Assembly (NCBI RefSeq): GCF_004339525.1
Contig: NZ_SMGE01000001.1
Coordinates: 1,550,001-1,614,000 of the forward strand
Direction of reading: 5' to 3'
Origin: Flavobacterium sp. 90
GTDB lineage: Bacteria; Bacteroidota; Bacteroidia; Flavobacteriales; Flavobacteriaceae
DNA length: 64,000 nt
Shown: one piece after another, positions 31,665-58,092 of the stretch
Layout: the number at the start of each line of letters is the position of its first letter
Position numbering within the stretch: position 1 is the stretch's first letter
Program-made: the position numbers and the translations under genes
The notes under the pieces: generated by a model
Told to the model about the DNA's origin: nothing
The model's database searches: none
Seen by the model: the letters and a program-made list of their open reading frames with translations, nothing else

Positions 31665-31780
31665 TGTGTTATCTATCTTAGATACTATGATTAGTACAAA
31701 GTAGAATGTAGCACCTTCTTTATGATAAAGGGTTGCTAAGGTTTCATCGGGTCTTTCCCTCCGCCTTTCGTGATAACTTT
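31665..31780 (-). promoter_or_regulatory. SAM-I (S-box) riboswitch of the metH/metF operon
   Basis: On the minus strand the aptamer core reads GGCGGAGGGA, GACCCGATGAAACCTTAGCAACC, a P3 hairpin, then GGTGCTACATTC, all hallmarks of the S-box. P1 is closed by GTTATC (complement of 31772-31777) and GATAAC (complement of 31668-31673), and P4 by TACTA/TAGTA. About 320 nt separate it from the start codon, including a perfect palindrome and a structured repeat. Binding of SAM would lower expression of the methionine synthase halves and metF. Confidence 0.93.
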
Positions 31781-35186: not shown

Positions 35187-35267
35187 TTTAATTTAATTTC
35201 ATCCAAACAAAATTAGATGATTTTATTGAACATTAGGAAAATCTAATATTGCAATGTTTATCGTTTT

Positions 35268-35315
35268 CCCCGGGTTAAAACCCGACGCTACAATATAAAT
35301 CGTTCCTTCGGAACT
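35268..35315. repeat. Bipalindromic repeat abutting the cobA stop codon
   Basis: CCGGGTT/AACCCG, GCTACAATATAAATC, GTTCC-TTC-GGAAC. The element runs right up to the last codon of cobA, so the gene's 3' end has probably been bounded by the insertion. Confidence 0.65.
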
Positions 35316-36089
35316 TTATCTAGTGATTTCTTTTGATAGAAATTCTTCGTAAAATCCTTTTAATTTATTGCTTTCGCGAACAACGTTTCCCAAAACAATA
35401 ATTGCCGGCGAACTTAATTGTTGCTCTTTTACAATTTCTAAAATCGAATCTACCGTTCCAACTCCTACTTTTTCTTCAGAAGTTGTTCCGTTTTGAATAA
35501 TTGCAACAGGCAAATTTCCTTTTTCTTCTTTTTGAAACAAATCAATAATTTGTGGTAATTTGTGCATTCCCATCAAAATAACAACTGTCGCAGATGATTG
35601 TGCTGCCAAAGCTACATCTGAAGATAATTTTCTATCAGAAGTTGTTCCCGTAATCGCCCAAAAACTTTCTGAAACGCCTCTTTTTGTAATCGAAATTCCC
35701 TGACTTGCAGGAACAGCAACTACCGACGAGATTCCGGGAATTACAATCGTTTCAATTCCGAAACTTTCAACAAATTCTATTTCTTCACTTCCACGCCCAA
35801 AAATAAAAGGATCTCCGCCTTTTAAACGCACTACATTTCCATACGTTAATGCATTATCTACAATTAACTGATTGATTTGATCTTGTGTATAAGCGTGATT
35901 TCCGATCTTTTTTCCAACAAAAATCTTGATGGCATTTTTAGATGCGTGCGCTAATATTTCGTCATTGGCCAATGCATCATACAAAACCACATTTGCTTCA
36001 GCTAGTGCTTTTACACCTTTGAGCGTAAGCAAATCCGGATCGCCTGGACCTGCGCCAACTAAAGTTACTTTTGGTTTGATATTAAGCAT
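35316..36089 (-). CDS. cobA: Uroporphyrinogen-III C-methyltransferase
   Basis: The 257-aa tetrapyrrole methylase shows the family signatures VGAGPGDPDLLTLKG (about 11-25), VVLYDALAN, VVRLKGGDPFIFGRGSEE (SAM binding), IPGISSVVAVPASQGI and the C-terminal VVILMGMHKLPQI. It adds two methyl groups from SAM to uroporphyrinogen III to make precorrin-2, the substrate of the MET8-like enzyme downstream. Its start overlaps the sulfite reductase stop by 8 bp, showing translational coupling of cofactor and enzyme. Confidence 0.93.
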   Translation of the reverse strand: MLNIKPKVTLVGAGPGDPDLLTLKGVKALAEANVVLYDALANDEILAHASKNAIKIFVGKKIGNHAYTQDQINQLIVDNALTYGNVVRLKGGDPFIFGRGSEEIEFVESFGIETIVIPGISSVVAVPASQGISITKRGVSESFWAITGTTSDRKLSSDVALAAQSSATVVILMGMHKLPQIIDLFQKEEKGNLPVAIIQNGTTSEEKVGVGTVDSILEIVKEQQLSSPAIIVLGNVVRESNKLKGFYEEFLSKEITR

Positions 36090-38172: not shown

Positions 38173-38175
38173 TTC

Positions 38176-38254
38176 TTTTTAGTTGTTGGTTGTCTGTTGT
38201 TGGTTGTTGGTTTGCTGGCAGAATAACTATCAACTAAAAACCATCAACTAGCAA
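38176..38254. repeat. Reduplicated 'GTTGTTGGTTG' word array
   Basis: GTTGTTGGTTGTCTGTTG followed by more such words, then inverted words (CAACTAAAAACCATCAACTA). It forms an imperfect hairpin between cysN and the sulfite reductase gene. Confidence 0.5.
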
Positions 38255-39499
38255 CTAGCGAATGAATCCTACTCCTGCTGTTGTATTTGTTGCTGTATCA
38301 ATTAAGATAAAAGCACCATTTGATTTATTATCGTTGTAGGCATCAAAATATAAAGGCTTACTTAGTTTGATACTTACTTCACCAATTTCGTTTATGGCTA
38401 ATTGTGACGCTTCTTTTGTTCCTGAGTAGTCAGTTGAGATTGTATTTTTGATACTTTCTACTTTTGCTAAAACCGAATTTGTATTGTGCTGAACGATATA
38501 TTTTGTACCTGCAACTAGTTTTTTACTGTCCATCCAGCAAACTGTTGTAGTGATTTCTTTTTCAATTTTTGGAAGTTCTGATGATTTTACAATCATATCT
38601 CCTCTTGTAACATTGATATCATTTTCTAATTCGATTGTAATCGAAGATCCTGCAGCGGCTTCATCAAATTGTTTATCGAAAAAATGAATTTTTGAAACTT
38701 TTGATTCTGTTAAAGAAGGAAGAACCGTAACGGCATCTCCAACTTTAATAGAATTTCCGTATAATTTTCCCGCATATCCTCTAAAATCATGATATTCTTC
38801 TGTTTTAGGACGAATAACGGTTTGAACCGGAAAACGTGCTTTTCCTGTTTCAAAAACATCATGAGAATGTAATCCTTCTAAATGTTCTAAAACGGTTTGA
38901 CCATCATACCAAGGCATATCTTTTGATTGATCTACTACGTTTCCTCCATTAATTGCACTCAACGGAATGTAACTTACGTTTTGCTCTTTGAAAGTACTTT
39001 TAGCGTTTAATGCCTGAAAATCGGCTTTGATTTTATTGAAAACTTCTTCAGAATAATCTACTAAGTCCATTTTGTTAATCGCAACAATTACCTCTTTCAC
39101 TCTCAATAAATTATTGATAAAAAAGTGACGGTATGTTTGCTCAATAACTCCTTTTCTGGCATCAATTAAAATAATAGAAACCTGAGAAGTCGAAGCTCCT
39201 GTAACCATGTTTCTGGTATATTCTACGTGACCCGGAGTATCGGCAATAATGTAACTTTTCTTTGCTGTCGAAAAATAAATGTGCGCAACATCAATCGTGA
39301 TTCCTTGTTCTCTTTCGGCAACCAAACCATCTGTTGCTAATGAGAAATCCAGATAATCATATCCTTTTTGTTTACTGCTTTTCTCGATTGCTTCTATCTT
39401 ATCAGTAGTCAATGATTTTGTATCGTACAATAATCTCCCAATCAAAGTGCTTTTTCCGTCATCTACACTCCCTGCTGTTGCTATTTTTAAAACTTCCAT
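38255..39499 (-). CDS. cysN: Sulfate adenylyltransferase subunit 1 (GTPase)
   Basis: The 414-aa EF-Tu-like GTPase has P-loop GSVDDGKS (10-17), the switch region EREQGITIDVAH, G3 DTPGH (87-91) and G4 NKMD (142-145), followed by two beta-barrel domains. It is CysN: GTP hydrolysis drives adenylation of sulfate by CysD to give APS. It has no fused APS kinase (CysC) domain, which is common in other bacteria. Together with the APS-type reductase in the operon this points to direct APS reduction. It lies 147 bp downstream of cysD. Confidence 0.95.
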   Translation of the reverse strand: MEVLKIATAGSVDDGKSTLIGRLLYDTKSLTTDKIEAIEKSSKQKGYDYLDFSLATDGLVAEREQGITIDVAHIYFSTAKKSYIIADTPGHVEYTRNMVTGASTSQVSIILIDARKGVIEQTYRHFFINNLLRVKEVIVAINKMDLVDYSEEVFNKIKADFQALNAKSTFKEQNVSYIPLSAINGGNVVDQSKDMPWYDGQTVLEHLEGLHSHDVFETGKARFPVQTVIRPKTEEYHDFRGYAGKLYGNSIKVGDAVTVLPSLTESKVSKIHFFDKQFDEAAAGSSITIELENDINVTRGDMIVKSSELPKIEKEITTTVCWMDSKKLVAGTKYIVQHNTNSVLAKVESIKNTISTDYSGTKEASQLAINEIGEVSIKLSKPLYFDAYNDNKSNGAFILIDTATNTTAGVGFIR

Positions 39500-39646
39500 T
39501 CTTGTAATTTTGTTTCAGGTTTAAATTTTTTGTTTCAGGTTTCAAGTTGTTGAAACGCTTTCACAAATTTTAAATCTGTATGTTTTTTTTGAATTTTACT
39601 TTCCAGTATTTTTAATTAATAATTTATAATTCACAATTAATAATTA

Positions 39647-40552
39647 TTAAAAATACCCTTGTTGTTTTCTCTTTTCCATTGCAGCTTCAGAACGTTTGTC
39701 GTCGATTCTGGCTCCTCTTTCAGAAATTGTTGATTCTCTGATTTCGCCTACAACTTCTTCGATTGTTGCTGCGTAAGATTCAACTGCGGCTGTACAACTC
39801 ATATCTCCAACGGTTCTAAAACGAACAATTCTTTCTTCGATTTGTTCGTCTTCTTCCTGATACACAAAAGGAGAATGTGACCAGATTAAACCGTCTCTCA
39901 AAAAAACTTTTCTTTTATGTGAAAAATAGATCGATGGAATCTCAATATGTTCTTTTTCGATATAACTCCAAACATCTAATTCTGTCCAGTTTGAAATTGG
40001 GAAAACACGAACGTTTTGTCCATTTTCGATTTTTCCATTCAAAATATCAAATAACTCAGGTCTTTGATTTTTTTCATCCCATTGACCAAAATCATCACGC
40101 ACTGAAAAAATACGTTCCTTTGCTCTTGCTTTTTCTTCGTCACGACGTGCTCCACCAATACAAGCATCAAACTTAAATTCTTCGATTGCATCTAAAAGTG
40201 TGATTGTCTGTAAGCTGTTTCTACTAGAATATTTTCCGGTTTCTTCAACTACTTTTCCTTCATCAATAGCATCCTGAACATTGCGAACGATTAATTCTAA
40301 TCCTAATTCTTCTACCAATTTGTCTCTAAAAGCAATTGTTTCAGGGAAATTGTGTCCTGTATCAACGTGCAATAGAGGAAACGGAATCTTTGCCGGAAAA
40401 AATGCTTTCTGTGCCAAACGCACTAATGTTATAGAATCTTTTCCTCCAGAAAAAAGTAAAACAGGCTTGTCAAATTGTGAAATTACTTCTCTGAAAATGT
40501 ATATCGCTTCACTCTCTAAAGCGTTTGTTTTTAATACTGAACTTGAACTCAT
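39647..40552 (-). CDS. cysD: Sulfate adenylyltransferase subunit 2
   Basis: The 301-aa PP-loop ATP pyrophosphatase has SGGKDS (35-40), PLLHVDTGHNFPE, GGARRDEEKARAKER, FPISNWTELDVW and the C-terminal RFRTVGDMSCTAAVES plus ERGARIDDKRSEAAMEKRKQ, all diagnostic of CysD. It joins sulfate to ATP to form APS with CysN. A 367-bp stretch made largely of repeats separates it from the APS reductase gene upstream; no terminator is evident there. Confidence 0.95.
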   Translation of the reverse strand: MSSSSVLKTNALESEAIYIFREVISQFDKPVLLFSGGKDSITLVRLAQKAFFPAKIPFPLLHVDTGHNFPETIAFRDKLVEELGLELIVRNVQDAIDEGKVVEETGKYSSRNSLQTITLLDAIEEFKFDACIGGARRDEEKARAKERIFSVRDDFGQWDEKNQRPELFDILNGKIENGQNVRVFPISNWTELDVWSYIEKEHIEIPSIYFSHKRKVFLRDGLIWSHSPFVYQEEDEQIEERIVRFRTVGDMSCTAAVESYAATIEEVVGEIRESTISERGARIDDKRSEAAMEKRKQQGYF

Positions 40553-40657
40553 TTGATATTTTGTTTAATGCTTGACAGTTTTTCTAATTTTAGATTGTTG
40601 TGAGTTTAATCTAAAACCTATAAAGCTATCGTTATTCTGTGTTTTTTGTTTTTGTTT

Positions 40658-40840
40658 TTTCAACGAAATAAAATCCCGTTACTTCAAGGCGTTCCCTTCA
40701 TCAATCTTCCCCGGATTAAAATCCGGCGCTACAATATAAATCTTCCTTCATTGATTGGGTTGAAATATCACATTGCAATCCTCAACCTCCCCCGGATTAA
40801 AATCCGGCGCTACAATATAAATCGTTCCTTCGGAACTTTA
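40658..40840. repeat. Cluster of three bipalindromic repeats between cysD and cysH
   Basis: A degenerate unit (AACGAAATAAAATCCCGTT, GGCGTTCCC) is followed by two units with identical first halves (CCCCGGATTAAAATCCGG, GCGCTACAATATAAATC) at about 40701 and 40788. Only the last has the full GTTCC-TTC-GGAAC. The rest of the gap (40553-40657, 40841-40919) is AT-rich with no gene. Confidence 0.65.
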
Positions 40841-40919
40841 ATCTATTGCCTTAAATCTATATTCTTTATTCTATTCTCTTGTATCTTGCCTTTAGCTTCT
40901 TGCCTCTAAAAATCTAGAC

Positions 40920-41630
40920 CTACTCTTTCTTAGCGCTATGCAAACCACACTCTTTATGGCTCGATTCCCACCACCATCTTCCGGCTCTGATATCTTCGCC
41001 AGGAAAAATTGCTCTTGTACAAGGCGCGCATCCAATACTTACGAAACCTTGTTTGTGCAAAGCATTTTGAGGAACATTATTTTCTGATAAATACGTTTCT
41101 ACTTCTTCTAAAGTCCACTTTAATAAAGGATTGAACTTTATGATTTCGAAACCTCCATCGTATTCAAACAATTGTAAGTCGTTTCTATTCTCAGATTGTT
41201 CAGCTCTTAAACCTGTAATCCAAACCGAATTTCCTGCCAAAGCTTTTCTCAACGGAACCACTTTTCGAATAAAACAACATTCTTTTCTATTTTCAACCGA
41301 ATCATAAAAGCTGTTTGGACCTTTATGTTTCAGTAAATTTTCGACTGCAGTTGCTTCCGGAAAATAAACCTCGATTGGCTTTTTATACTTTTTTAATGTT
41401 TTATGAAAAACATCGTACGTTTCCTGAAACAATCTTCCGGTATCTAATGTAAAAATCGTGATATCCTGATTACTTTTTGCGATAAAATCTGTAATCACCT
41501 GATCTTCCTGTCCAAAAGAAGTCGAAAAGATTACTTTGCCAGGAAATTCACTTGCTAAAAAAGCTAATGTTTCTTCCAGTGAAAAATCTTTTGTTTCATC
41601 TAATAATGATTGTATAATCGTCGCACTCAT
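40920..41630 (-). CDS. cysH: Assimilatory adenylyl-sulfate (APS) reductase, [4Fe-4S] type
   Basis: The 236-aa PAPS/APS reductase-family enzyme has an FSTSFGQEDQ P-loop-like start and FTLDTGRLFQETYD. The cysteine pair 118-119 (KECCFIRKVVPL) and Cys201/Cys204 (GCAPCTRAI) together form the CC...CxxC cluster motif of APS-using enzymes. The catalytic Cys228 lies in KECGLH near the C-terminus. The cluster motif, and no cysC in the window, favour APS rather than PAPS as substrate. It lies 27 bp after the TauE-like gene and upstream of cysDN. Confidence 0.9.
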   Translation of the reverse strand: MSATIIQSLLDETKDFSLEETLAFLASEFPGKVIFSTSFGQEDQVITDFIAKSNQDITIFTLDTGRLFQETYDVFHKTLKKYKKPIEVYFPEATAVENLLKHKGPNSFYDSVENRKECCFIRKVVPLRKALAGNSVWITGLRAEQSENRNDLQLFEYDGGFEIIKFNPLLKWTLEEVETYLSENNVPQNALHKQGFVSIGCAPCTRAIFPGEDIRAGRWWWESSHKECGLHSAKKE

Positions 41631-41657
41631 AATCTCTTCTTTCCTTTCTAAAAAATA

Positions 41658-42560
41658 TTACAATAATTTAGATAATGTTTTTAAACTCAATAATATAATT
41701 AAAATTCCAACCGCAACCATCATTGGTTTTCTTTTGATTTTGTTAACCAAATAAGCCGCTAAAGGTGCCGAAATTACGCCTCCTATAATCAACCCAAAAA
41801 TAACCTGCCATCCATGAATTCCTCCAAAAAGCATAAACGTGATTCCACTTGCAAATGAAATTGCAAACTCAGCTGCATTCACAGAACCTATTGTATATCT
41901 TGGATTTCTGCCTCTTCCTAATAATGTAGAAGTTACAATTGGTCCCCAGCCACCGCCACCAACCGAATCCATAAAACCTCCAAAAGTGGCTAAATATCCT
42001 AATTTTGTTGTTTTCTTTTTTACAACCGTTTTAGACAATGCTTTTTTGATAATAACAGCTGCCAAGATGATCATATAAACCGCAATAAATGGCTTAATAA
42101 TATCTCCGTTAATTACATCTGATAATAAATAAGCTCCTGTAATAGAACCTAAAACACCTGGAATTAATAAATGCTTTACCAGTTTTTTATTGATGTTCCC
42201 AAATTTATGATGCGAAAGCGCCGATGCTCCTGTTGTAAACATTTCAGAAACGTGAACTGCTGTACTGCTCACAACTGGCGGAACTCCATAAGCCAATAAA
42301 AATGACGTTGAAGTTGCTCCGTAACCCATTCCTAATGTTCCATCAACCAATTGAGCAAAAACTCCAATTCCAAAAAATACTAAGAACTCCTGATTGAAAC
42401 CTCCAACAAACCCACTCCATGAAAACTCATTGTAGTGATTAAAAATTAATGTAGATAATAAACCTACTAATAAAACAACTGGTATTACTACCCATAATTT
42501 CTCTTTTATAGAGACATCAGATCTAACATCATAATTATTTATTTTCAATTCTTTTTCCAT
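41658..42560 (-). CDS. TauE/SafE-family membrane transporter, first gene of sulfate operon
   Basis: From the ATG at 42560 the protein has 300 aa; an upstream in-frame ATG at 42587 is possible but overlaps the operator-like palindrome end. It has about eight membrane spans with the family's glycine-rich repeats (LVDGTLGMGYGATSTSFLLAYG, GGFMDSVGGGGWGPIVTSTLLG, NAAEFAISFASGITFM). TauE/SafE proteins move sulfite, sulfate or organosulfonates. As no CysPTWA, SulP or CysZ gene is in the window and this is the first gene of the sulfate operon, it may be the sulfate importer or a sulfite exporter. Confidence 0.85.
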   Translation of the reverse strand: MEKELKINNYDVRSDVSIKEKLWVVIPVVLLVGLLSTLIFNHYNEFSWSGFVGGFNQEFLVFFGIGVFAQLVDGTLGMGYGATSTSFLLAYGVPPVVSSTAVHVSEMFTTGASALSHHKFGNINKKLVKHLLIPGVLGSITGAYLLSDVINGDIIKPFIAVYMIILAAVIIKKALSKTVVKKKTTKLGYLATFGGFMDSVGGGGWGPIVTSTLLGRGRNPRYTIGSVNAAEFAISFASGITFMLFGGIHGWQVIFGLIIGGVISAPLAAYLVNKIKRKPMMVAVGILIILLSLKTLSKLL

Positions 42561-42588
42561 ACTCTCATGGTTGGTTTTGGCTTGCAAA

Positions 42589-42616
42589 ATCTATTACCCT
42601 ATCGGGTTAATAGATT
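42589..42616 (-). promoter_or_regulatory. 28-bp operator-like palindrome at the sulfate operon start
   Basis: Arms AATCTATTACCC and GGGTTAATAGATT face each other around TATC. The palindrome begins a few bases after the -7 box of the sulfate operon promoter, so it covers the transcription start, where a repressor would bind. The Rrf2-type regulator encoded at 43744-44154 is the obvious candidate. Confidence 0.55.
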
Positions 42617-43743: not shown

Positions 43744-44154
43744 TTAAAATGCAATATCTGCTAATGAATTACTTTCCAGAATTTTAAGTGTATTATCACG
43801 AACCTCTGTCATTAAACGTCTTGCTGCACAGGTAGTTTCATCATCACAATCATCACATTTTTCATAAAAGTTATGACTCGCGCACGGAAGCAATGCTATC
43901 GGACCTTCGAGGATACGATAGACTTTTGCCATACTGATATCTTTTGGATCTTTTATCAGATAATAGCCACCGCCCTTTCCTTTTTTCGCTCCTAGAAAAC
44001 CTGAATTTCTGAGGAGTAATAAAATACTTTCTAAGAACTTAATTGAAATATGTTCGCTTTTTGCAATTTCTGCAATTTGTACAGGATCATTATTTTCTCG
44101 TCTGGCTAAATATGTTAAGGCTTTAATTCCGTATTTTGTTTTCTTTGAAAGCAT
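43744..44154 (-). CDS. Rrf2-family transcriptional regulator with four C-terminal cysteines
   Basis: The 136-aa protein has the Rrf2 winged helix: start MLSKKTKYGIKALTYLA, recognition region HISIKFLESILLLLRN, wing GAKKGKGGGYYL, and the dimerisation helix with EGPIALLPC. Four Cys (91, 100, 103, 109) with spacing C-x8-C-x2-C-x5-C lie in the loop that carries the Fe-S ligands in IscR/NsrR, though the spacing differs. CymR-like Rrf2 proteins regulate cysteine metabolism. Its place beside both TauE genes and the sulfate operon suggests that it controls them, either by Fe-S state or by a CymR/CysK-like mechanism. Confidence 0.88.
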   Translation of the reverse strand: MLSKKTKYGIKALTYLARRENNDPVQIAEIAKSEHISIKFLESILLLLRNSGFLGAKKGKGGGYYLIKDPKDISMAKVYRILEGPIALLPCASHNFYEKCDDCDDETTCAARRLMTEVRDNTLKILESNSLADIAF

Positions 44155-49216: not shown

Positions 49217-50206
49217 TTATTTTTCTATTGTTTCTGCCTTAAAAATATCGGCAAGTAAATGATCTAATTGTTTGTACTCGATTAAAAAAGCGTCATGTCC
49301 GTGAACTGAATCTATTTCGCTATAAAAAACATTGTCTTTGAACTTTTTTAAGTCCTGAAAAGTTTCCCGATTTTCTTTTGGTGTAAAAAACAAATCCGAA
49401 TTGATTCCGATAATATGAATCGCTGCATTTGTTCTAGACATTAAAGTTTCAAAATCGTCACTATTTCTGGTAATATCTATGGTTTTAAGTAATTGGTTCA
49501 TCAGTTTATATGATGCCAATTGATATCTCTTTTGTAGTTTTTCACCGTGATGTGCCAACCAGCTTTCGATATTAAAAACAGAAAGATTGGCATTGATTGT
49601 ACGCTGAAATTTTTCTTTGAATGATTCAGGAGATCTGTAACACAACATTGCATGAATTCTGGCATCTTCAATAGGACGTGACGAATTATTAAGAATCTGC
49701 TCTTGCAAATAGCAATTAGCAATCATCCAGTCCGTCGATTTCCAGTCTGTAGCAATGGGAATTAGGTTTTGAGTAATATTAGGTTCTAATGCAAGAATTT
49801 CCCAAGCGATTCCTCCGCCAACAGAACCTCCAATAATGGTGTGTACCTGATTAATATTTAAAGCTTCTAAACCTTTTATAAATATTCTGGCAATATCTCT
49901 GGTGGTAAAATCCAGATAATTTTCAATTATAAACGAATCGTTTCCATTTCCCGGAACATCAAATGCCAGGATAGTATATTTTTGGGTATCAATCGTTTTT
50001 TCTTCGCCAATTAAATCATTCCACCAGCCATTTTCTCCAGTTACCTCAGCGTTTCCTGTCAAAGCATGATTAACCAAAACTATAGGCGCACTATGTAAAG
50101 GCAAACCAGAAAGCGTAAAACTTAACGGTAATGAAAGATATGCTGCACCACTTTCGGTGATGAAATCTTGAATTATAATGGGACTTGGTATATTTTCCAA
50201 TTTCAA
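49217..50206 (-). CDS. metX: Homoserine O-acetyltransferase-family alpha/beta hydrolase (MetX-like)
   Basis: The 329-aa alpha/beta-fold protein has the MetX signatures NHALTGNAEV (46-55) and nucleophile Ser128 in IGGSVGGGIAWE, then HIIGINSDLFFTPKE (catalytic Asp) and DSVHGHDAFLIEY (catalytic His). It acetylates homoserine with acetyl-CoA for MetZ/MetY. It is shorter than classical MetX (about 370-380 aa), as is common in flavobacteria. The start codon lies 73 nt after a SAM-I riboswitch, so SAM directly represses it, and it heads thrA-osmC-metZ. Confidence 0.9.
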   Translation of the reverse strand: MKLENIPSPIIIQDFITESGAAYLSLPLSFTLSGLPLHSAPIVLVNHALTGNAEVTGENGWWNDLIGEEKTIDTQKYTILAFDVPGNGNDSFIIENYLDFTTRDIARIFIKGLEALNINQVHTIIGGSVGGGIAWEILALEPNITQNLIPIATDWKSTDWMIANCYLQEQILNNSSRPIEDARIHAMLCYRSPESFKEKFQRTINANLSVFNIESWLAHHGEKLQKRYQLASYKLMNQLLKTIDITRNSDDFETLMSRTNAAIHIIGINSDLFFTPKENRETFQDLKKFKDNVFYSEIDSVHGHDAFLIEYKQLDHLLADIFKAETIEK

Positions 50207-50278: not shown

Positions 50279-50387
50279 TTGTTATCTTTCCACGTTTGGG
50301 CGTGGTAGAATGCAGCACCTTCTTCGATTTAACGAAGGGTTGCTAAGGATTCATCGGGTCTAATCCCTCGTCCTTTCTTTATAACAT
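50279..50387 (-). promoter_or_regulatory. SAM-I (S-box) riboswitch of the metX operon
   Basis: On the minus strand the core reads GGACGAGGGA, GACCCGATGAATCCTTAGCAACC, P3 (CTTCG...CGAAG), GGTGCTGCATTC and P4 CCACG/CGTGG, closed by P1 ATAAC.../GTTAT. It matches the metH riboswitch at 31665 almost base for base in the core. Only 73 nt separate it from the metX start and no terminator hairpin is visible, so control may be translational. Confidence 0.93.
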
Positions 50388-50652: not shown

Positions 50653-50844
50653 TTAGATAAAAAGTGTTTCATTTTCTTTTGAATACATCAAAAACAATAA
50701 AGAATTTGGTTCTTTTTTCTCCGCTTTTTTATCTGTTTCAGTTATTCCGAAACTTGGATGAATCAATTCGTTTACTGGCGGTGGATTATTTCTTTCGATT
50801 TTGCTTCTGAAAAGTTTTTTTCTTAAGTAGTTAATTGTGCTCAT
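50653..50844 (-). CDS. Small 63-aa protein of the Cys/Met-leader regulon (copy A)
   Basis: A 63-codon ORF begins 84 nt after the attenuator hairpin of the Cys-rich leader. The protein is basic in its first third (YLRKKLFRSKIERN) and ends SLLFLMYSKENETLFI. A second 63-aa ORF in the same position after the metY leader (54075-54266) has the same start M-x-T-x-N and C-terminal pattern SLL-x-LMYS-x-E-x-E-x-x-FI. Same length, same context and a shared C-terminal motif indicate a real family, unknown to me. It may be a small regulator or a modulator of the sulfhydrylases. Confidence 0.6.
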   Translation of the reverse strand: MSTINYLRKKLFRSKIERNNPPPVNELIHPSFGITETDKKAEKKEPNSLLFLMYSKENETLFI

Positions 50845-50927
50845 GATATTTAAGTTTATGTTAGTTTGCGTTTTATAATCTTTATTGTTTGTTTAATTCT
50901 TTGTTATGGTAACCAAATGGAATAAAA

Positions 50928-50961
50928 AAACCCTTTTGGGTTTTTAATACCAAAAGGGTTT
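50928..50961 (-). terminator. Attenuator terminator after Cys leader 1
   Basis: The minus-strand arms AAACCCTTTTGG and CCAAAAGGGTTT have a 10-nt loop and are followed by seven or more T. A competing antiterminator can form: the 10 nt just after and including the leader stop (complement of 50985-50994, AUACUAAAAG) pair with CUUUUGGUAU (complement of 50947-50956), destroying the 5' arm. Confidence 0.85.
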
Positions 50962-50993
50962 AAGTTTTTTACAACTTATATATACTTTTAGTA

Positions 50994-51095
50994 TCAACAG
51001 ACGCATACACAAATACGTGCGACGTTAAACATCTTGTTCATCTGTAGGGATTTATTCATCTTTGATTTACTTGCTATTTTAAAAAAATCTTGCAT
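50994..51095 (-). CDS. Cysteine-rich leader peptide 1 (attenuator of small-protein/metX region)
   Basis: A 33-codon frame runs from the ATG at 51095 to the TGA at 50994-50996; an internal ATG at 51059 would give 21 codons. It ends ARICVCVC, so Cys occupies positions 29, 31 and 33, with Met at 13, 19 and 22. The stop codon overlaps the first base of an antiterminator strand, and the terminator starts 33 nt further on. A ribosome waiting for Cys-tRNA would leave the antiterminator free; one reaching the stop would cover it. It is read as a transcription-attenuation leader. Confidence 0.65.
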   Translation of the reverse strand: MQDFFKIASKSKMNKSLQMNKMFNVARICVCVC

Positions 51096-51313
51096 TTGTT
51101 TGTCTTTAAAAGCTTCTCGAAACTGCTGAATTATTTTTACTTATTTTTCCTCTTCAAAATCAATAAGATATAAAATTCATCAACGGTTTTATCCGATTAA
51201 CATAACTATTATTTAGAATAACTAAATTTATCTTCTTGGTGTTTTTGAGGTATTACAAATGTGCGAATATTTTTTCAATTACGCAAGTGAGGATCAACAA
51301 ATTAATCTTAAAA

Positions 51314-51350
51314 AACGTTAAAAAACATCATTTTAACGTTAAAAAACATC
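51314..51350. repeat. Two direct copies of AACGTTAAAAAACATC, 21 bp apart
   Basis: Identical 16-bp words at 51314-51329 and 51335-51350 are offset by two helical turns. They lie between the hom gene end and Cys leader 1 and could be a protein-binding site. No other feature is seen in 51096-51458; an open frame of 71 codons on the plus strand there looks accidental. Confidence 0.4.
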
Positions 51351-51458
51351 TTACAAAATTGGCTTTTGTTAAAATGAGAGTTAAAACCTACAAAAAATAC
51401 GTTACAAATTTTCCTGTTTCAAAATATCAAAGAACAACTAACTACTATTAAAAGCCAC

Positions 51459-52547
51459 TTACAACCAAACTGCTTCTTTATTTTTAATTTTTTCAGCCAC
51501 TTTCAAAATGTCAGTAATTACTCCTCTTGAAATAGCTTGTTTGCATGCCGATGCACTCTGAATTACGATTGGAACATCTGCGTAAGATTGGGTATAAATT
51601 TCGAAAATAGTATCAGATCCTTTTAGTTGACCAATTGCCGACGAAACCGGTTCTGAAACCAATTTTACTTCTAATGTGTTTTTCTCCACATCAAATTCTC
51701 CTACATATCTTAATACATGATTATCCGCTTGTGTGATTTTTGCAATTTTGAACGATTTATCGACTGCTTCTTTATTAAGAATACCATTTTGTTCTAAATG
51801 TTCTTCCCTAAGCAAAGAATCGATTTTTATATCCGACAGATCAAAATCCTTCCCGATTTCTCTCGTCAAAATCAGTAATTTTCTGGCGGTATCATTTCCG
51901 GATAAATCTTCTTTAAAAGTCGATCGCATTAATCCGAGTAAACTCGCGTCTTTTAAAAGCGAAGAAAAAGTGGCTTCTTCTGTAGCAAATCGGTTAAAAA
52001 CATAACTCAGATTATCTGAAAAAACACCGCGAATCTTTGTAATTTTCTCTCCTGAATGATACAAATCTCTTAAGGTCTGTAAAACAGGAAAACCAGTATC
52101 AACCGATGTTTCATACAAAAACTCTTTATCATACTTTTTAAGATTTGACCTAATCTCTTTATATAAATCAATTGGCAATGTATTGGCTTTTTTATTTACC
52201 GCAACAATATTAAATCCGTTTTCAATCAATGTATTATAATGATGAATGAGTTCGTCACTTGCAGTTGCGTCAACAGCGATTAGATTCTCGAATTCATTTT
52301 CTTTGGCAAATGCAATAATATCCTGCACTTTAAAAGGAACGGCCAATTCTAAGAAATTGGTTTCCCAGGCATATCCAACGCCTTCTTTCTCGAAAAAAGC
52401 TACTGTTGAATTTGTGATAATCGGAAAATGAAAATCAACATTTCTACTTTCGAGAAAAAACTCCTGACTTTCGATAATTTGATTGATCAAAGTACTTCCG
52501 ATATTTCCAATTCCAAAAAGGATGATATTTATTTTAAGCTTTGACAT
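51459..52547 (-). CDS. hom: Homoserine dehydrogenase, single-domain, ThrA-like
   Basis: From the ATG at 52547 the protein has 362 aa; an extension to 52586 is out of character. The NAD(P) motif FGIGNIGSTLINQI resembles the HSD half of the ThrA protein encoded at 46801 over its whole length (VAVNKKANTLPIDLYKEIR, YETSVDTGFPVLQTLRDL, GVFSDNLSYVFNRF, KEDLSGNDTARKLLILTREI), so it is a detached, diverged copy. The Asn-to-Asp change in FSDNLSYVFN versus FSGTLSYLFN is notable near the active site. It follows metY and would supply homoserine when the Cys/Met leader allows transcription. Confidence 0.85.
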   Translation of the reverse strand: MSKLKINIILFGIGNIGSTLINQIIESQEFFLESRNVDFHFPIITNSTVAFFEKEGVGYAWETNFLELAVPFKVQDIIAFAKENEFENLIAVDATASDELIHHYNTLIENGFNIVAVNKKANTLPIDLYKEIRSNLKKYDKEFLYETSVDTGFPVLQTLRDLYHSGEKITKIRGVFSDNLSYVFNRFATEEATFSSLLKDASLLGLMRSTFKEDLSGNDTARKLLILTREIGKDFDLSDIKIDSLLREEHLEQNGILNKEAVDKSFKIAKITQADNHVLRYVGEFDVEKNTLEVKLVSEPVSSAIGQLKGSDTIFEIYTQSYADVPIVIQSASACKQAISRGVITDILKVAEKIKNKEAVWL

Positions 52548-52699
52548 AATTTTTAATTTATTGGGGTTAATTAAACCGTAATCCATTTTAGACGCACTAC
52601 TGTGCGCCTCTACATATATTGGTTTATTTTCTATAAAAAATCACCTCTAGTAGAACTCACACTACTAAAGGCAATTTTTCAAACAAAAAACAAAAAAAC

Positions 52700-54004
52700 C
52701 TAATTTTTATTAATGCTGTATTGCGATTGTGTTACGCTTGCGAAAACGGTTTGCAAATCAGCTATTAAATCCTCTATATCTTCAATTCCAACAGAAAGTC
52801 GGATTAAATCTTTTGAAACTCCAGTTTCTAATTGATCAGCATCAGACAATTGTTGATGCGTTGTACTTGCCGGATGAATAATTAATGATTTTGTATCACC
52901 AATATTCGCCAAAAGCGAGAACAATTTTGTCTCATCGACTACTTTTTTAGCAGCTTCAAAACCACCTTTTAATCCAAAAGTGATTACACCACTTTGTCCT
53001 TTTGGTAAATATTGCTGCGCCAGATCATAATATTTATTGTTTTTTAAACCTGGATAATTTACCCAAACTACCTCATCTTGCTTTTCTAACCATGAGGCCA
53101 GAGCCAAAGCATTTTCGCTATGTTTCTTAATTCGAATTGGTAAAGTTTCTAATCCCTGAATAATTTGAAAAGCATTAAACGGACTCAAAGCTGCGCCAAA
53201 ATCACGCAATCCTTCGATTCTTGCTTTTGCTATGAAAGCTGCATTTCCTAAAGCTTCGTGATAAACTAGTCCGTGATATCCTGCTGAAGGTTCTGTAAAC
53301 TCAGGAAATTTTCCGTTTGACCAGTCAAATTTTCCTGCGTCAATAATTGCGCCTCCTAAAGAAGTTCCGTTTCCTGAAATATATTTAGTTAAAGAGTGAA
53401 TTACGATATCCGCTCCGTACTCAATTGGATTCAATAAATAAGGAGTAGCAACCGTATTGTCTACAATAAAAGGAACTTTGAAGTTTTTGGCTTCCGCCGA
53501 AATTCCTTTCAGATCTAATACATCTAATTTTGGATTTCCCAGAGATTCTACAAAGAATGCTCTTGTGTTTTCTTTGGCCGCTTTTGTGAAATTTTCGGAT
53601 TTAGACGGATCTACAAAAGTTGTTGTGATCCCTAAACGCGGCAAAGTTACATTTAGCAAATTATAAGTTCCGCCATACAAACTGTTTGAAGCCACGATAT
53701 GATCTCCCGCTTTTAGCAAAGTCAATAATGCTGTCGAAATTGCCGATGCTCCAGAAGCTGTAACGACAGCTCCAATTCCGCCTTCAAGCGCTGCTAATCT
53801 TTGTTCTAAAACATCGTTTGTTGGATTATTTAATCGAGTGTAGATAAATCCGGCTTCGGCAAGACCAAATAAATTGGCAGCATGATCTGAATCATTAAAT
53901 ACATATGAAGATGTTTGATAAATAGGCACTGCTCTTGTTCCTGCATTTTTAGTAACATCGTGTCCTGCGTGTAGTGCGTTTGTTGCAAATTTTTGTGTGC
54001 TCAT
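52700..54004 (-). CDS. metY: O-acetylhomoserine sulfhydrylase (MetY-type)
   Basis: The 434-aa PLP enzyme of the Cys/Met family has FATNALHAGHDVTKNAGTRA, IYTRLNNPTNDVLEQRLAALEGG, VTASGASAISTALLTLL, VDNTVATPYLLNP and Lys207 in VIHSLTKYISGNGTSLGG. This long form with YQTSSYVF is the O-acetylhomoserine aminocarboxypropyltransferase type, which makes homocysteine directly from sulfide, the end product of the sulfate operon in this window. It lies 70 bp after the small 63-aa ORF and downstream of Cys/Met leader 2, with hom as the next gene. Confidence 0.93.
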   Translation of the reverse strand: MSTQKFATNALHAGHDVTKNAGTRAVPIYQTSSYVFNDSDHAANLFGLAEAGFIYTRLNNPTNDVLEQRLAALEGGIGAVVTASGASAISTALLTLLKAGDHIVASNSLYGGTYNLLNVTLPRLGITTTFVDPSKSENFTKAAKENTRAFFVESLGNPKLDVLDLKGISAEAKNFKVPFIVDNTVATPYLLNPIEYGADIVIHSLTKYISGNGTSLGGAIIDAGKFDWSNGKFPEFTEPSAGYHGLVYHEALGNAAFIAKARIEGLRDFGAALSPFNAFQIIQGLETLPIRIKKHSENALALASWLEKQDEVVWVNYPGLKNNKYYDLAQQYLPKGQSGVITFGLKGGFEAAKKVVDETKLFSLLANIGDTKSLIIHPASTTHQQLSDADQLETGVSKDLIRLSVGIEDIEDLIADLQTVFASVTQSQYSINKN

Positions 54005-54074
54005 GATCTTAGTTTTTTAGGTATTGTTAATACTATTATATATTGTTATTGAAATTGTTTCTTTTGAAATTGAC

Positions 54075-54266
54075 TTATTGTATAAAAAAATCTTCTCCTT
54101 CTTCTTCAAGGCTATACATTAGAAGCAGTAATGATTTTTGACTTTTTATGTCTTGTTCTACATTTAGTCTTATAACTTCTCTTGATACATCTTCAGATTT
54201 ATTATTGTTGTTTTGAGAGTCGTTTCTCAATAAATACTCTACTGCAATTGAATTTAATGTTCTCAT
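54075..54266 (-). CDS. Small 63-aa protein of the Cys/Met-leader regulon (copy B)
   Basis: This 63-codon ORF begins 33 nt after the attenuator hairpin and ends 70 bp before metY. Its C-terminus SLLLLMYSLEEEGEDFFIQ matches that of the ORF at 50653-50844, and both start M-x-T-x-N. The middle is Asn/Glu/Lys-rich and differs. The repeated order leader peptide, terminator, 63-aa gene, homocysteine-forming enzyme suggests a functional small protein rather than chance. The function is unknown. Confidence 0.6.
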   Translation of the reverse strand: MRTLNSIAVEYLLRNDSQNNNNKSEDVSREVIRLNVEQDIKSQKSLLLLMYSLEEEGEDFFIQ

Positions 54267-54298
54267 AATTTGAAATTTTAAAAGTGTTGAAATAAAAA

Positions 54299-54329
54299 AA
54301 GCCCTTTCGGATGGCTACCAAAAGGGCTT
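54299..54329 (-). terminator. Attenuator terminator after Cys/Met leader 2
   Basis: The minus-strand arms AAGCCCTTTTGG and CCGAAAGGGCTT have a 7-nt loop and a following T-run. The alternative antiterminator pairs GUUGCCAAAAG, the last codons of the leader (complement of 54364-54374), with CUUUUGGUAGC (complement of 54314-54324), 11 bp with G-U wobbles, which removes the 5' arm. Confidence 0.87.
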
Positions 54330-54360
54330 ATAGTTCTAACTATAACAAAGATTTACTCTT

Positions 54361-54441
54361 TCACTTTTGGCAACAGCAATTTTGGATGCACACTTGCATC
54401 ATCTCACAACATATCATCATATTATTTGCTATTGTTTTCAT
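54361..54441 (-). CDS. Cysteine/methionine-rich leader peptide 2 (metY attenuator)
   Basis: A 26-codon frame begins with ATG (54439-54441) and ends TGA (54361-54363). Met is at 1, 8, 9, 14 and 15 and Cys at 11, 12, 18, 22, 23 and 24, so 11 of 26 codons are Met or Cys, including MM, CC, MM and CCC runs. Such bias is the hallmark of a leader that senses charged tRNA. The terminal Cys-Cys-Gln-Lys codons themselves form one strand of the antiterminator. The metY terminator follows 31 nt after the stop. Confidence 0.85.
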   Translation of the reverse strand: MKTIANNMMICCEMMQVCIQNCCCQK

Positions 54442-54492
54442 TTTCGTATTATTTAAATTAATTCATTTTTAAGTTCGACTAATTTGATAGAG

Positions 54493-54524
54493 TAAATATA
54501 GAAACTAATTTTAGAACTACCAAA
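54493..54524 (-). promoter_or_regulatory. Promoter of Cys/Met leader 2 transcript
   Basis: TTTG (54521-54524), 20 bp, TATATTTA (54493-54500) on the minus strand. The bases after TTTG (GGT-A-G) are shared with the promoter of leader 3. Confidence 0.55.
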
Positions 54525-54590
54525 TTAAAAAATGATATTTTGTATTATTTTTTTTTAAGCCCTGTAAATGCTGGAGTTTGCTTTTAAAAA

Positions 54591-54758
54591 ATTTAGCCCG
54601 CGGATCTTGCGGATTAAACGGATTTGCACCGATTTATTTTATTTGTTTTGCAATTAATTAAAAAGTTTAACCACTCCCGATAGCTATCGGGATAAAGGAT
54701 TAAAATGATTAAAAAAAATCTGTGCAAATCCGTTTAATCTGCCAAACCCGTGGCCAAT
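54591..54758. repeat. Long inverted repeat with central CCCGATAGCTATCGGG
   Basis: About 42-nt arms containing GATTAAACGGATTTGCAC (54610s) and its reverse complement (54723-54740) flank a 16-bp perfect palindrome near 54676-54691. It lies 10 bp after the end of the large receptor gene and could act as its terminator. The family is the same as 15688 and 59503. Confidence 0.65.
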
Positions 54759-54768
54759 CTTTATATTT

Positions 54769-57615
54769 TTAGAATTTGAAACTTAGTCTTGCAAAACCAA
54801 ATCTTCCGTTCAATCCAAATTGTGATACTGCTCTTGAATAAGCAAACTGATTTGCGTTTGTCAAATCTGTACTTGGCGCAGGAGACAATGTTGGAGTTGT
54901 ATTTGTAAATGCCGGAGTTGCAGGATTATTTCTATCCGGATAAACGTCTCCTATATTATTAAACCCAATCGTAAATCTGAATTTTTCGTTGATTTGATAT
55001 CCTGCTGATAAATCGGTTACAATTTTTGCACTATAAACAGGATGTTCGTAAACTGAAGATGATCCGTCTAAGTTTACATCTGTCGCTCCAGGATCAGTAA
55101 CTTTTCCGAAATAGCTGTTTCTTAAATAGATATCCAGTTTTTTAATACTGAAAGTTGTCATCAAGTTCGCTTTCAATTTAGGAATCGCTTCTTCTAAATA
55201 AATTCTGCTTGATTCCGGGAAAAATGAATATTTATAAGGATCTCCACCTGCATCAATAATAGATTGAGGAACATTTAAATCTCCTACTCTTTTTGTTTCA
55301 TTATAACTTAAAGCAAGATCATTTCTGATCACAAAATCAGGAATAACATCATATTTCTGAGAAATTACAACATCGATACCTTTAGTTTCAGAGTTGATTC
55401 CGTTAGTCCAGAACGAAGCTCTTTCGACACCTTTTAAATCAAATGCTTGTTGAAACAATGTCAATGCCTCCTTTTGTGCCGGCGATGTTGCGGCATCTAT
55501 TTGCGCAGTTGTTGGTCTTGCATATTGTCCTGTCAATACAACTCTGTCGTCGATTCTTGTAAAATAAGCATCTGTTGCAATCGTAATATTTGCTTCAGGA
55601 ATTTTGAATGTGAATCCTGTACTGATACTTTTAGATTTTTCAGGTTTCAAATCTTCAACTCCAATACTTTTTGCCGCTTGAGAATCATTTGTAAAATATC
55701 CAACCTGATAAGGAGAACCGTTTATAAATTGTGTAGAACTGCTTTCAAAATATTTTTGCTGTAATGATGGCGCTCTAAAACCAGTTTGTCCTGAAATTCT
55801 CCAATTGATATTATCTGTTAATTTCAAAAGAGACGCTAATTTAAAAGTAACTGTACTTCCAAAATCAGAATAATTCTCATAACGTGCAGCACCATTTAAA
55901 AGCCATTTTTCTGTAGCATTTAATTCTAAATCAATATAAGCGGCACCACTTTTTCTATCTCTTTCTTTAGCATCAGATGGTTGAAATCCTGAGAAACCTT
56001 GTGCTCCGGCTCCACGTTTGTTTCCAAAAAAGTCTGTAACAATTAATGGTGAATTACTTGGTAAAATTCCCGAAACCAAATTTCCGTTTATATCATACAA
56101 TCCGTAAGATGCTTCTTCTCCTGCTTTTATCTGATAGTTTTCATATCTGAATTCTCCACCAAAAGCAACGTTCAATCCTGCTAAAACATCATACTTTTTA
56201 CTGAAGTCTAAGTTGGTTGTACTTTGTAAAAACGAAACTTTACCAGCATCAAAACTTGTAGGCGAATTTGTTCCTAAAGTTGCATTAATAGTATTGTTTA
56301 CATCATATTTAAAAGAGTTTGATCCTAAGTTTGTACTTAAATCTGTATCAAAACCAAATAATTGAGTTGTAACTCCAACTGCTGCCGAAGCATCCAGAAT
56401 GTCAGACTCTATTTCCGGTAAAAAACCATTTGAATACACTTGCGTGAAAGTTCCGGAACCATTTGGCAATCTGTTAAAAGCATACGATTTTCCGTTTCTA
56501 TAAGATACTCCACCAAAAGAATATAAAGATGTAATATCGCTTAGCGGATATTTTGCATTATAATAAGCTTGTCCCGAAGCCAATTCTGACTGACCAACAC
56601 TCATATTATAATCACTTCTTTGCTGACCTCTGTACGCCAATTCATTATTGGTTGCATCAAAATTCAAAGCTGTTTGCATTTGAGCAATAGTCGTAGCCGA
56701 AGAAATTGCAGTTTGCTGTGCAGTTGTAAAATAACTTACTTGCGGCGCATATTGTTTTAACGAACTAAGAATTTGCGCTGAGTTTGCTGTATTGTTAATA
56801 TTGCTGAACAAAGAATTAATTTGAACACCATCCTGAGCTGCTCTGTTTTCGACAGCATTGTAACCATTAAAAATTGGGTTACTTCTAATTCCTGCTCTGC
56901 TTGTTGCTTGTCTGGTTACGGCACTGGCAGTAACATTTAGAAAACTTCCTGTTTTACCCAAAGAAGTTCCGTAATTCAAGTCTGCTTGAAGAGTTTGTCC
57001 ATCAGATCCGCCTTTAAAATTATTAGATCCCGAAGATAAGTTAGTTCCATATTGAACCCCTCCCGAAATAAAATTGGCATTCTTTTTCAATACAATATTA
57101 ATAACTCCCGCAATTGCATCTGAACCATATTGTGCTGCTGCTCCATCACGCAAAACCTCGATTCTCTCGATAGCAAATGATGGAATTGCATTCAAATCTG
57201 TTCCAACAGATCCTCTTCCCGGAGAACCATTAATGTTTACCAATGCACTTGTATGTCTGCGTTTACCATTTACCAAAATCAAAACCTGATCTGGTCCTAA
57301 ACCTCTTAATTGTGCCGGATCTACGTGATCTGTTGCATCTGCAGTAGAAGTTGCGTTACTGGTAAATGATGGCGCAACATAATTTAAAATCTGAGTCACA
57401 CTGGTTTGTGGCGAGCCTTTAGTGATTTCAGAAATATTAAAAACATCAACTGGAACAGGCACATCTGTTTTTACTCTGTTTTTACTTCTTGACCCAACTA
57501 TTGTCACTTCAGACAATTCATTATTCTTTAAGCTGTCCTGCTCTTTTTTATTTTCCTGTGCATAAATGCCTGAAAATGTTAGAAGACCTAAAGCTATTAC
57601 TAGATTTCTTTTCAT
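54769..57615 (-). CDS. Large TonB-dependent receptor under Cys/Met attenuator control
   Basis: The 948-aa protein has a signal peptide ending YAQ (about residue 20) and no carboxypeptidase-like domain. Its plug is at about 33-180 (LSEVTIVGSRSKNR, VPVPVDVFNISEI, QILNYVAPSFTSN, AQLRGLGPDQVLILVNGKRRHTSALVN, IERIEVLRDGAAAQYGSDAIAGVINIVLKK). A large barrel ends GRFGFARLSFKF. Its transcript starts with leader 3 (Met and Cys codons) and an attenuator, so it is probably made when Cys or Met is scarce and may import a sulfur compound. There is no SusD-like partner and no cobalamin riboswitch, so it is not an obvious BtuB. Confidence 0.9.
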   Translation of the reverse strand: MKRNLVIALGLLTFSGIYAQENKKEQDSLKNNELSEVTIVGSRSKNRVKTDVPVPVDVFNISEITKGSPQTSVTQILNYVAPSFTSNATSTADATDHVDPAQLRGLGPDQVLILVNGKRRHTSALVNINGSPGRGSVGTDLNAIPSFAIERIEVLRDGAAAQYGSDAIAGVINIVLKKNANFISGGVQYGTNLSSGSNNFKGGSDGQTLQADLNYGTSLGKTGSFLNVTASAVTRQATSRAGIRSNPIFNGYNAVENRAAQDGVQINSLFSNINNTANSAQILSSLKQYAPQVSYFTTAQQTAISSATTIAQMQTALNFDATNNELAYRGQQRSDYNMSVGQSELASGQAYYNAKYPLSDITSLYSFGGVSYRNGKSYAFNRLPNGSGTFTQVYSNGFLPEIESDILDASAAVGVTTQLFGFDTDLSTNLGSNSFKYDVNNTINATLGTNSPTSFDAGKVSFLQSTTNLDFSKKYDVLAGLNVAFGGEFRYENYQIKAGEEASYGLYDINGNLVSGILPSNSPLIVTDFFGNKRGAGAQGFSGFQPSDAKERDRKSGAAYIDLELNATEKWLLNGAARYENYSDFGSTVTFKLASLLKLTDNINWRISGQTGFRAPSLQQKYFESSSTQFINGSPYQVGYFTNDSQAAKSIGVEDLKPEKSKSISTGFTFKIPEANITIATDAYFTRIDDRVVLTGQYARPTTAQIDAATSPAQKEALTLFQQAFDLKGVERASFWTNGINSETKGIDVVISQKYDVIPDFVIRNDLALSYNETKRVGDLNVPQSIIDAGGDPYKYSFFPESSRIYLEEAIPKLKANLMTTFSIKKLDIYLRNSYFGKVTDPGATDVNLDGSSSVYEHPVYSAKIVTDLSAGYQINEKFRFTIGFNNIGDVYPDRNNPATPAFTNTTPTLSPAPSTDLTNANQFAYSRAVSQFGLNGRFGFARLSFKF

Positions 57616-57689
57616 TACTTCTTTTTGGTATTTATTATTACTTTGGGTTAAAAATGATTTACAATTTGGTTTCTTTTTTGAAATAAAAA

Positions 57690-57713
57690 AACCCCTGCTG
57701 TTTAGCAGAGGTT
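57690..57713 (-). terminator. Attenuator terminator after Cys/Met leader 3
   Basis: The minus-strand arms AACCTCTGCT and AGCAGGGGTT have a 4-nt loop and are followed by seven T. The leader codons GCA GAG (complement of 57751-57756) can pair with CUCUGC of the 5' arm (complement of 57705-57710) as a shorter, 6-bp antiterminator. Confidence 0.8.
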
Positions 57714-57738
57714 CTATGTATATTTTTTTGAAAAAAAA

Positions 57739-57804
57739 CTACAACAGCGTCTCTGCGGAAGGCTCCGGCATCTTACAAGACATATTGCACATTGTTAATT
57801 TCAT
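57739..57804 (-). CDS. Methionine/cysteine-rich leader peptide 3 (TonB receptor attenuator)
   Basis: A 21-codon frame begins with ATG (57802-57804) and ends TAG (57739-57741). Met is at 1, 5, 8 and 12 and Cys at 6 and 10, a cluster in the first 12 codons. The remainder (PEPSAETLL) includes the GCA-GAG codons that can form the antiterminator. The terminator begins 25 nt after the stop. The bias favours Met over Cys, unlike leader 1, so the three leaders may weigh the two amino acids differently. Confidence 0.75.
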   Translation of the reverse strand: MKLTMCNMSCKMPEPSAETLL

Positions 57805-57826
57805 TTGTTGGATTAATTTGATGGGG

Positions 57827-57858
57827 CAAATTTGCAAACTATTTTTTAATCGACCAAA
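57827..57858 (-). promoter_or_regulatory. Promoter of Cys/Met leader 3 transcript
   Basis: TTTG (57855-57858), 20 bp, CAAATTTG (57827-57834) on the minus strand, about 25 bp before the leader ATG. Spacing is identical to the promoters of leader 2, metX and metH. Confidence 0.5.
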
Positions 57859-57946
57859 CAAAAACAGAAATAATTTCTATTACCCTATCAAAATAGTATG
57901 TTATGTTAAATTTCTGCTTATAAAATTAAAAAAAACAGAAGTTTAA

Positions 57947-57976: not shown

Positions 57977-57985
57977 CACCCGAAT

Positions 57986-58092
57986 ACAGAGGAAAAATTT
58001 GAACTGATTGCAACCTCTTCATAATGAAACGGTTCGTTATGAATACTGAAAGATTGATTTCAGTAGTAAAAAATGCTAAAGCAGAAATTCTC
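57986..58092 (+). promoter_or_regulatory. SAM-II-type (long-loop) riboswitch of metK
   Basis: P1 pairs AGAGG (57988-57992) with CCTCT (58014-58018) around a loop ending ATTGCAA, as in SAM-II. Two extra hairpins follow (TCATAA/TTATGA and ACTGAAA/TTTCAGT), then AATGCTAAAGC. The 3' segment GCAGAAATT (58081-58089) can pair with loop bases AATTT (57996-58000) and TTGC, giving the SAM-II pseudoknot. The extra hairpins match the long-loop variant reported in Bacteroidota. It lies about 58 nt before metK and probably represses translation when SAM is high. Confidence 0.75.

Follow-up and report, generated by a model that had tools for sequence, protein, structure and literature searches.

The window analyzed here is the whole stretch of 64,000 nt examined from Flavobacterium sp. 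90 (GCF_004339525.1, NZ_SMGE01000001.1:1,550,001-1,614,000, forward strand); it lies on a chromosome of 6.65 Mb whose close relatives are Flavobacterium. On its minus strand, which carries all the features described in this section, three short ORFs rich in Cys and Met codons are found, each with an intrinsic terminator 25-33 nt 3' of its stop codon. The ORF of leader 1 (MKLTMCNMSCKMPEPSAETLL, 57739..57804), the prototype of type-1 leaders, includes a segment 1 (TGCCGGA, 57764..57770) which can form a helix with the beginning of segment 2 (TCCGCAGAG, 57751..57759). Segment 2 can pair either with segment 1 or, through GCAGAG, with the 5' arm of terminator 1 (CCTCTGC..GCAGGGG followed by a T-run, 57685..57713), located 25 nt after the stop codon. 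The first gene after this leader encodes a TonB-dependent receptor of 948 aa (54769..57615) with Pfam Plug and beta-barrel domains, for which searches of PDB and NCBIfam returned generic TonB receptor matches only.

Leader 2 (type-2; MKTIANNMMICCEMMQVCIQNCCCQK, 54361..54441) contains the antiterminator segment CCAAAAG (54364..54370), and its terminator (AAGCCCTTTTGG..CCGAAAGGGCTT and T-run, 54294..54329) begins 31 nt after the stop codon. It is followed by a small ORF of 63 aa (54075..54266), by metY, encoding O-acetylhomoserine sulfhydrylase (52700..54004; TIGR01326, 646.7 bits for a cut-off of 495.1), and by a homoserine dehydrogenase-like gene (51459..52544) whose best matches are below their curated cut-offs. 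Leader 3 (MNKSLQMNKMFNVARICVCVC, 50994..51059) has a possible alternative start, an in-frame ATG 12 codons further upstream. Its antiterminator segment (TGATACTAAAAG, 50985..50996) precedes terminator 3 (AACCCTTTTGG..CCAAAAGGGTT and T-run, 50924..50960; 33 nt after the stop codon) and a second small ORF of 63 aa (50653..50844), its likely direct target. Further downstream, a SAM-I riboswitch (50279..50387; RF00162, 76.4 bits) provides separate control of a metX-like homoserine O-acetyltransferase gene (49217..50206; below the curated cut-off).

The positions given in an earlier note for the three minus-strand Cys/Met leaders, their spacings and their terminators were all confirmed. That note had also described leader-end segments complementary to the terminator 5' arms, and these are seen in each case: GCAGAG with CTCTGC in leader 1, CCAAAAG with CTTTTGG in leader 2 and TGATACTAAAAG with CTTTTGGTATTA in leader 3.

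Conservation and distribution of the leaders

Against the background of 29 long ORFs of the window, in which Cys and Met represent 0.45% and 1.34% of residues, the probability of a Cys and Met content at least as high as observed is 2e-5 for leader 1, 8e-12 for leader 2 and 2e-5 for leader 3, these values being calculated post hoc. A scan of 1.69 Mb, comprising 73 related Flavobacterium-type loci and the window on both strands, returned 706 pairs of a short ORF and a terminator. After exclusion of leaders 1 to 3 with their counterparts and of four variants missed by the classifier, 7 of the remaining 491 pairs contained at least three Cys.

It had been proposed to look for the leader ORFs in relatives, and they are indeed conserved. 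Leader 1 is kept in 73/73 related loci, leader 2 in 70/73 (69 by script, plus L031, recognized by eye, where the T-run is broken) and leader 3 in 70/73; three of the 73 loci (L050, L052 and L059) yielded neither leader 2 nor leader 3. The locus of Flavobacterium johnsoniae CI04 (L007), a strain of a laboratory species, has leaders 1, 2 and 3. Fewer than two Cys are present in 15 of the 73 leader-1 matches of the ORF-terminator scan, and a single Cys is left in leader 3 of five loci (L038, L041, L042, L056 and L061). No leader was found at three loci with distant receptors sharing 40-42% identity (L074-L076).

Covariance models extended this survey. Model R1, built on leader 1, had matches in 127 of 199 genomes of the genus, and model R2, built on leader 2, in 120 of them. 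In a sample of the family, R1 matched 46/299 genomes, two of them of this genus, and 38/236 genera. In a sample of the phylum, it matched 13/247 genomes; 12 of these belong to this genus and the last one falls outside the family, and the 12 genomes listed from other genera of the family gave no match. As far as model R1 sees, the predicted leaders are widespread within the genus and occur sporadically beyond it.

One hundred regions, picked on R1 matches, were fetched: 80 belong to the genus and come for the most part from outside the clade of the window, and the others are 20 of the 47 places outside the genus. They contain 137 R1 matches, of which 133 are distinct. Judging from marker proteins, type-1 elements precede metY, metX, metB-like, OsmC/HSD/metH, cysH-cysD-cysN and cysE-cysK genes. 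The cys genes of these regions are putative, being named from the likeness of their translations to known enzymes. Outside the genus, metY or metX comes next at 19 of the 20 places; at the remaining one, the available stretch ends too soon. What had been described as a set of three is instead, according to the R1 matches, a family of elements, often in tandem, located on cys and met operons.

Alternative RNA pairings

In the leader 1 consensus, UGCCGGA pairs with UCCGCA (1:2), whereas CUCUGC in the terminator is the complement of GCAGAG in segment 2 (2:3) and also takes part in the terminator stem (3:4). Pairing between segment 2 and the terminator arm was examined over six 2:3 pairs in 133 distinct type-1 rows, this pairing having been used neither for building the model nor for the alignment. 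Pairing is seen in 92.4% of cells vs 83.2% in shuffles, with 48 double-change cells vs 10.5 ± 2.9 and a covariation score of 0.296 vs 0.155, each of these three values being reached by 0/500 shuffles. Sliding the arms lowers pairing to 37-55% (at most 54.8%). Weaker measures are the number of pairs with a double change (6 vs 4.1; reached by 16/500 shuffles) and the number of further pair types (14 vs 11.6; 49/500 shuffles). Segment 2 and the terminator arm change together, as in GCAGAG/CTCTGC, GCAGCG/CGCTGC and GCAAGGG/CCCTTGC, and a segment-2 complement of at least 6 bases is present in 124/135 cases, a count which is not independent since the best match was picked. The 1:2 and 3:4 helices exhibit 197 double-change cells vs 46, in an alignment fitted to that structure.

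For type-2 leaders, the antiterminator segment is conserved without covariation: in an alignment which includes, in addition, some matches of type-1 or on the opposite strand, it is paired in 76.7% of cells vs at most 60.4% when slid, with a covariation score of 0.103 vs 0.101 in shuffles. The covariation between terminator and antiterminator arms that the earlier note had suggested looking for is present in type-1 leaders and was not detected in type-2.

Folding gave a mixed picture. At all positions tried for the masked ribosome, the terminator is preferred in leaders 1 and 2. For the complete leader 3 without ribosome, the fold of minimum energy contains a 12-bp antiterminator. Masking by a ribosome placed on Met7, on Met10 or on Cys17, which is conserved, also leads to the antiterminator, and masking at the stop codon, Cys19 or Cys21 to the terminator. 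Because these masked folds favor the terminator in leaders 1 and 2 and, at Cys19 and Cys21, in leader 3, kinetic folding must be assumed.

Control codons and the pathway served

Codons were counted in a stall window of five codons before segment 1, leaving out one match without leader ORF, three poorly anchored rows and repeated peptides. At least two Cys are found in this stall window in 11 of 14 distinct leaders of Cys operons vs 1 of 20 metB/metX leaders (Fisher p 1.3e-5, related genomes not being independent), the remaining three Cys-operon leaders being second-position elements with a CC run mostly outside the stall window. Conversely, at least three Met are present in 2/14 Cys-operon and 15/20 metB/metX leaders. 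Leaders of metY (n=65) mix both residues, with on average 1.20 Cys and 2.72 Met. In the 10 fetched genomes which have both kinds, the Cys leader is richer in Cys in 9, with a tie in 1; this within-genome comparison, from which second-position cysH leaders were left out, lessens the effect of kinship and does not remove it. The pattern is absent from the OsmC/HSD/metH leaders and from the first leaders before the sORF, which contain few Cys or Met codons.

Proposed mechanism and alternatives

A ribosome-mediated attenuator requires an intrinsic terminator after the leader ORF, an antiterminator excluding this terminator and control codons suited to the operon. A terminator follows each of the leader ORFs, a covarying antiterminator is found in type-1 leaders (leader 1), and the codons match the pathway, with Cys for cys operons and Met for metB/metX, outside the OsmC/HSD/metH group. 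The earlier proposal of ribosome-mediated Cys/Met attenuation is supported by this match, by conservation and by type-1 covariation, to which the genomic order described below can be added. We consider, with a probability of about 0.85, that the leaders are ribosome-mediated transcription attenuators with Cys/Met control codons; their translation, ribosome stalling, termination and response to Cys/Met are what we infer from the sequences.

A shortage of charged Cys-tRNA or Met-tRNA would make the ribosome translating the leader stall at the Cys/Met codons; segment 2, left uncovered, could then pair with the 5' arm of the terminator, and transcription would go on. When both charged tRNAs are ample, the ribosome would reach the stop codon and cover segment 2, and the terminator would form. 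Leader 1 would thereby control the TonB receptor, leader 2 the 63-aa ORF and metY, and leader 3 the other 63-aa ORF. Numerous relatives have one attenuator of each type in series before a single operon; in the clade of the window, the receptor gene stands between the two.

Cys/Met-rich peptides could also be arrest peptides which sense a metal, a thiol or the redox state through these residues, similarly to CruR, and an upstream ORF controlling a TonB receptor has a precedent (PMC9426467). Such a function is improbable here. The nucleotides of segment 2 are kept and their reading frame varies (66 distinct leaders in phase 0, 31 in phase 2); the end of the peptide is not conserved, and the use of two reading frames indicates that conservation acts on the RNA rather than on the peptide. 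In addition, Cys is swapped for Met according to the operon served, and the three peptides of the window have neither the RAPP end nor the CXXC motif of the CruR-type copper uORF.

A still smaller chance can be given to leaders being short-transcript ends or trans-acting small RNAs with constant read-through into the genes. Terminated leader transcripts, once released, would resemble small RNAs, and a trans-acting leader peptide has been reported (PMC7298713), but this explanation gives no role to the covarying alternative pairings or to control codons matched to the pathway. Least probable of all is a riboswitch for a metabolite, or a T-box, in which the ORF would be fortuitous, as SAM riboswitches do act on neighboring genes but no Rfam family reaches its cut-off in the leaders, even in a permissive search, and the conserved part consists of the ORF and the hairpins.

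Tandem order and probable insertion of the receptor gene

Attenuators of both types are frequently adjacent. A type-2 match starts less than 400 nt downstream of 84 of 136 type-1 matches, and a type-1 match is located less than 400 nt upstream of 79 of 96 distinct type-2 matches, a fraction biased upward because the regions were picked on type-1 matches. In 48 of these, the spacing is below 60 nt, which leaves little room for a promoter between the two elements. The typical order is metK (divergent), type-1, type-2 and metY; in the clade of the window, it becomes metK, type-1, receptor, type-2, small ORF and metY.

Close receptor orthologues (at least 84% identity) are present in 28/199 genomes of the genus, each located 62-101 nt behind a type-1 match according to a comparison by eye. 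This includes the orthologue of G293, which is matched over residues 219-948 only and has a consistent spacing. In one relative, the receptor gene contains an in-frame TAG and shows as two matches (G255:C1:1554188-1557032). More distant receptors (54-58%) are placed elsewhere in their genomes. Four close relatives without a receptor at this place keep, as seen by eye, a promoter-like TTTG box between both attenuators, as expected for a later loss of the receptor. The gene was probably inserted into a pre-existing attenuator tandem in the ancestor of the clade, repeated losses elsewhere being a less economical explanation. A TonB receptor under attenuator control had been proposed from the window; it does stand directly behind leader 1, but it seems to have been inserted between two attenuators at a later stage.

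This arrangement leads us to consider, at even odds, a two-stage gate for sulfur amino acids. Two serial attenuators of a single transcript, each with its own mix of Cys and Met codons, would both have to be passed for full expression; a gene inserted between them, such as the TonB receptor gene, would receive the less stringent response of the first stage, and codons would be retuned between Cys and Met when a leader is reused.

The 63-aa ORFs and metX

Neither small ORF has a Pfam or NCBIfam match, the Pfam scan of 54075-54266 having been run without its last six residues. They share a similar C-terminal end (SLLFLMYSKENETLFI in one and SLLLLMYSLEEEGEDFFI in the other). Among the 120 of 218 relatives of the leader-3 ORF that are listed, those which are named come from Flavobacterium or compost metagenome.

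A terminator-like hairpin is located 3' of the ORF 50653-50844 in 66/71 loci, vs 77/710 shuffled stretches. Before the SAM-I riboswitch of metX, the sequence is almost invariant and reads TTTG..TTAATTTG; it strictly matches the flavobacterial promoter consensus in 3/71 loci and is otherwise close to it. Since a hairpin follows the 63-aa ORF and an almost invariant promoter-like stretch precedes the riboswitch, metX is probably a separate transcription unit. Leader 3, which had been thought to govern metX, probably controls the 63-aa ORF instead. The attribution of leader 2 to metY holds in that metY lies downstream, but the other 63-aa ORF comes first. In relatives, a further attenuator-like leader can be found before leader 3, for instance MNFNICKINKVMSEKSVGKSIA with AAGCCTCCC..GGGAGGCTT (L163:3127-3438(-)); no intact extra unit of this kind was seen at 51100-51250 of the window.

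Other sulfur genes and sensors

The cysH operon of the window (34605-42587(-); TauE, cysH, cysD, cysN, sulfite reductase and siroheme genes) has, by eye, no Cys leader with a terminator. Several other Flavobacterium genomes do have a Cys leader before cysH. The 14-mer GATAGGGTAATAGA occurs in exactly two copies genome-wide, at 57876-57889(-) and 42590-42603(-), which precede the TonB leader and the TauE-cysH-cysD-cysN genes. It may be an operator common to sulfur genes, and an Rrf2-family gene (43744-44154) is a candidate for the regulator acting at this site; with up to two mismatches, the pattern is not enriched over a reversed control (34 vs 48). Another motif, CTATC(A/G)AA, is promoter-proximal at leader 2; it was discarded as a family feature, being present in only 2/135 type-1 upstream regions (shuffled rate 0.6%).

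Three SAM sensors are found beside the three Cys/Met leaders. In addition to the SAM-I riboswitch of metX (50279-50387(-)), a second SAM-I riboswitch (31666-31779(-)) precedes a gene (30344-31348) which resembles the N-terminal part of metH, and a SAM-II riboswitch (57983-58089(+)) is located before metK. At the leaders, near-matches to the trpB motif (E 0.27), rnk (0.32) and the Phe leader (0.64) were below cut-off and were treated as chance.

Relation to known systems

In attenuators of the trp, his and thr type, a short ORF whose control codons correspond to the product is combined with segments pairing 1:2, 2:3 and 3:4 and with an intrinsic terminator. The same short control-codon ORF, pairings and terminator are found here. 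In contrast to these systems, the codons specify Cys and Met, elements of types 1 and 2 stand in series, and one of them serves an outer-membrane receptor. Cys-codon leaders of Actinobacteria were reportedly treated by Canestrari in 2020.

In Actinobacteria, Cys-rich short ORFs precede cysteine operons, and the sections consulted report no conserved terminator hairpins for the mycobacterial Cys leaders (PMC1262725); compared with what is described there, the flavobacterial leaders have intrinsic terminators, a covarying antiterminator and also Met codons. In Rhodobacterales, uORFC-8-2 combines tandem Cys codons in a short ORF with a terminator; according to the portion consulted, it is found in alpha-proteobacteria before cysS only (PMC8632094), whereas the flavobacterial leaders precede cys and met operons. 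CruR of Bordetella is, like leader 1, an upstream ORF before a TonB receptor, but it senses copper, and Rho-dependent termination, RAPP arrest and CXXC copper sensing distinguish it from the leaders (PMC9426467).

In Flavobacterium psychrophilum, leader-peptide attenuation has been proposed before amino-acid operons, with pheA, hisG and others named as conserved; section 19 of this source mentions neither Cys/Met operons nor this receptor (PMC9723704). The earlier note needs correction in that attenuation of flavobacterial amino-acid operons was already stated in general terms, though not for Cys/Met operons in that section. In the open-access literature, judged by title or start of the abstract, no Cys/Met or tandem leader attenuator was recognized in Bacteroidota. 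What would be new here is the dual Cys/Met control, the serial arrangement, the codons tuned to the pathway and the transporter probably inserted between the stages, as they are read from the sequences.

Implications

These leaders would represent a case of leader-peptide attenuation in Bacteroidota which can be tested on sequences. Natural variants differ in control codons, in stem sequence and in their tandem or single state, making codon specificity and the logic of the series testable. The position of the TonB receptor behind leader 1 suggests a sulfur-related substrate, and an outer-membrane transporter could gain amino-acid control through insertion into an existing regulatory leader.
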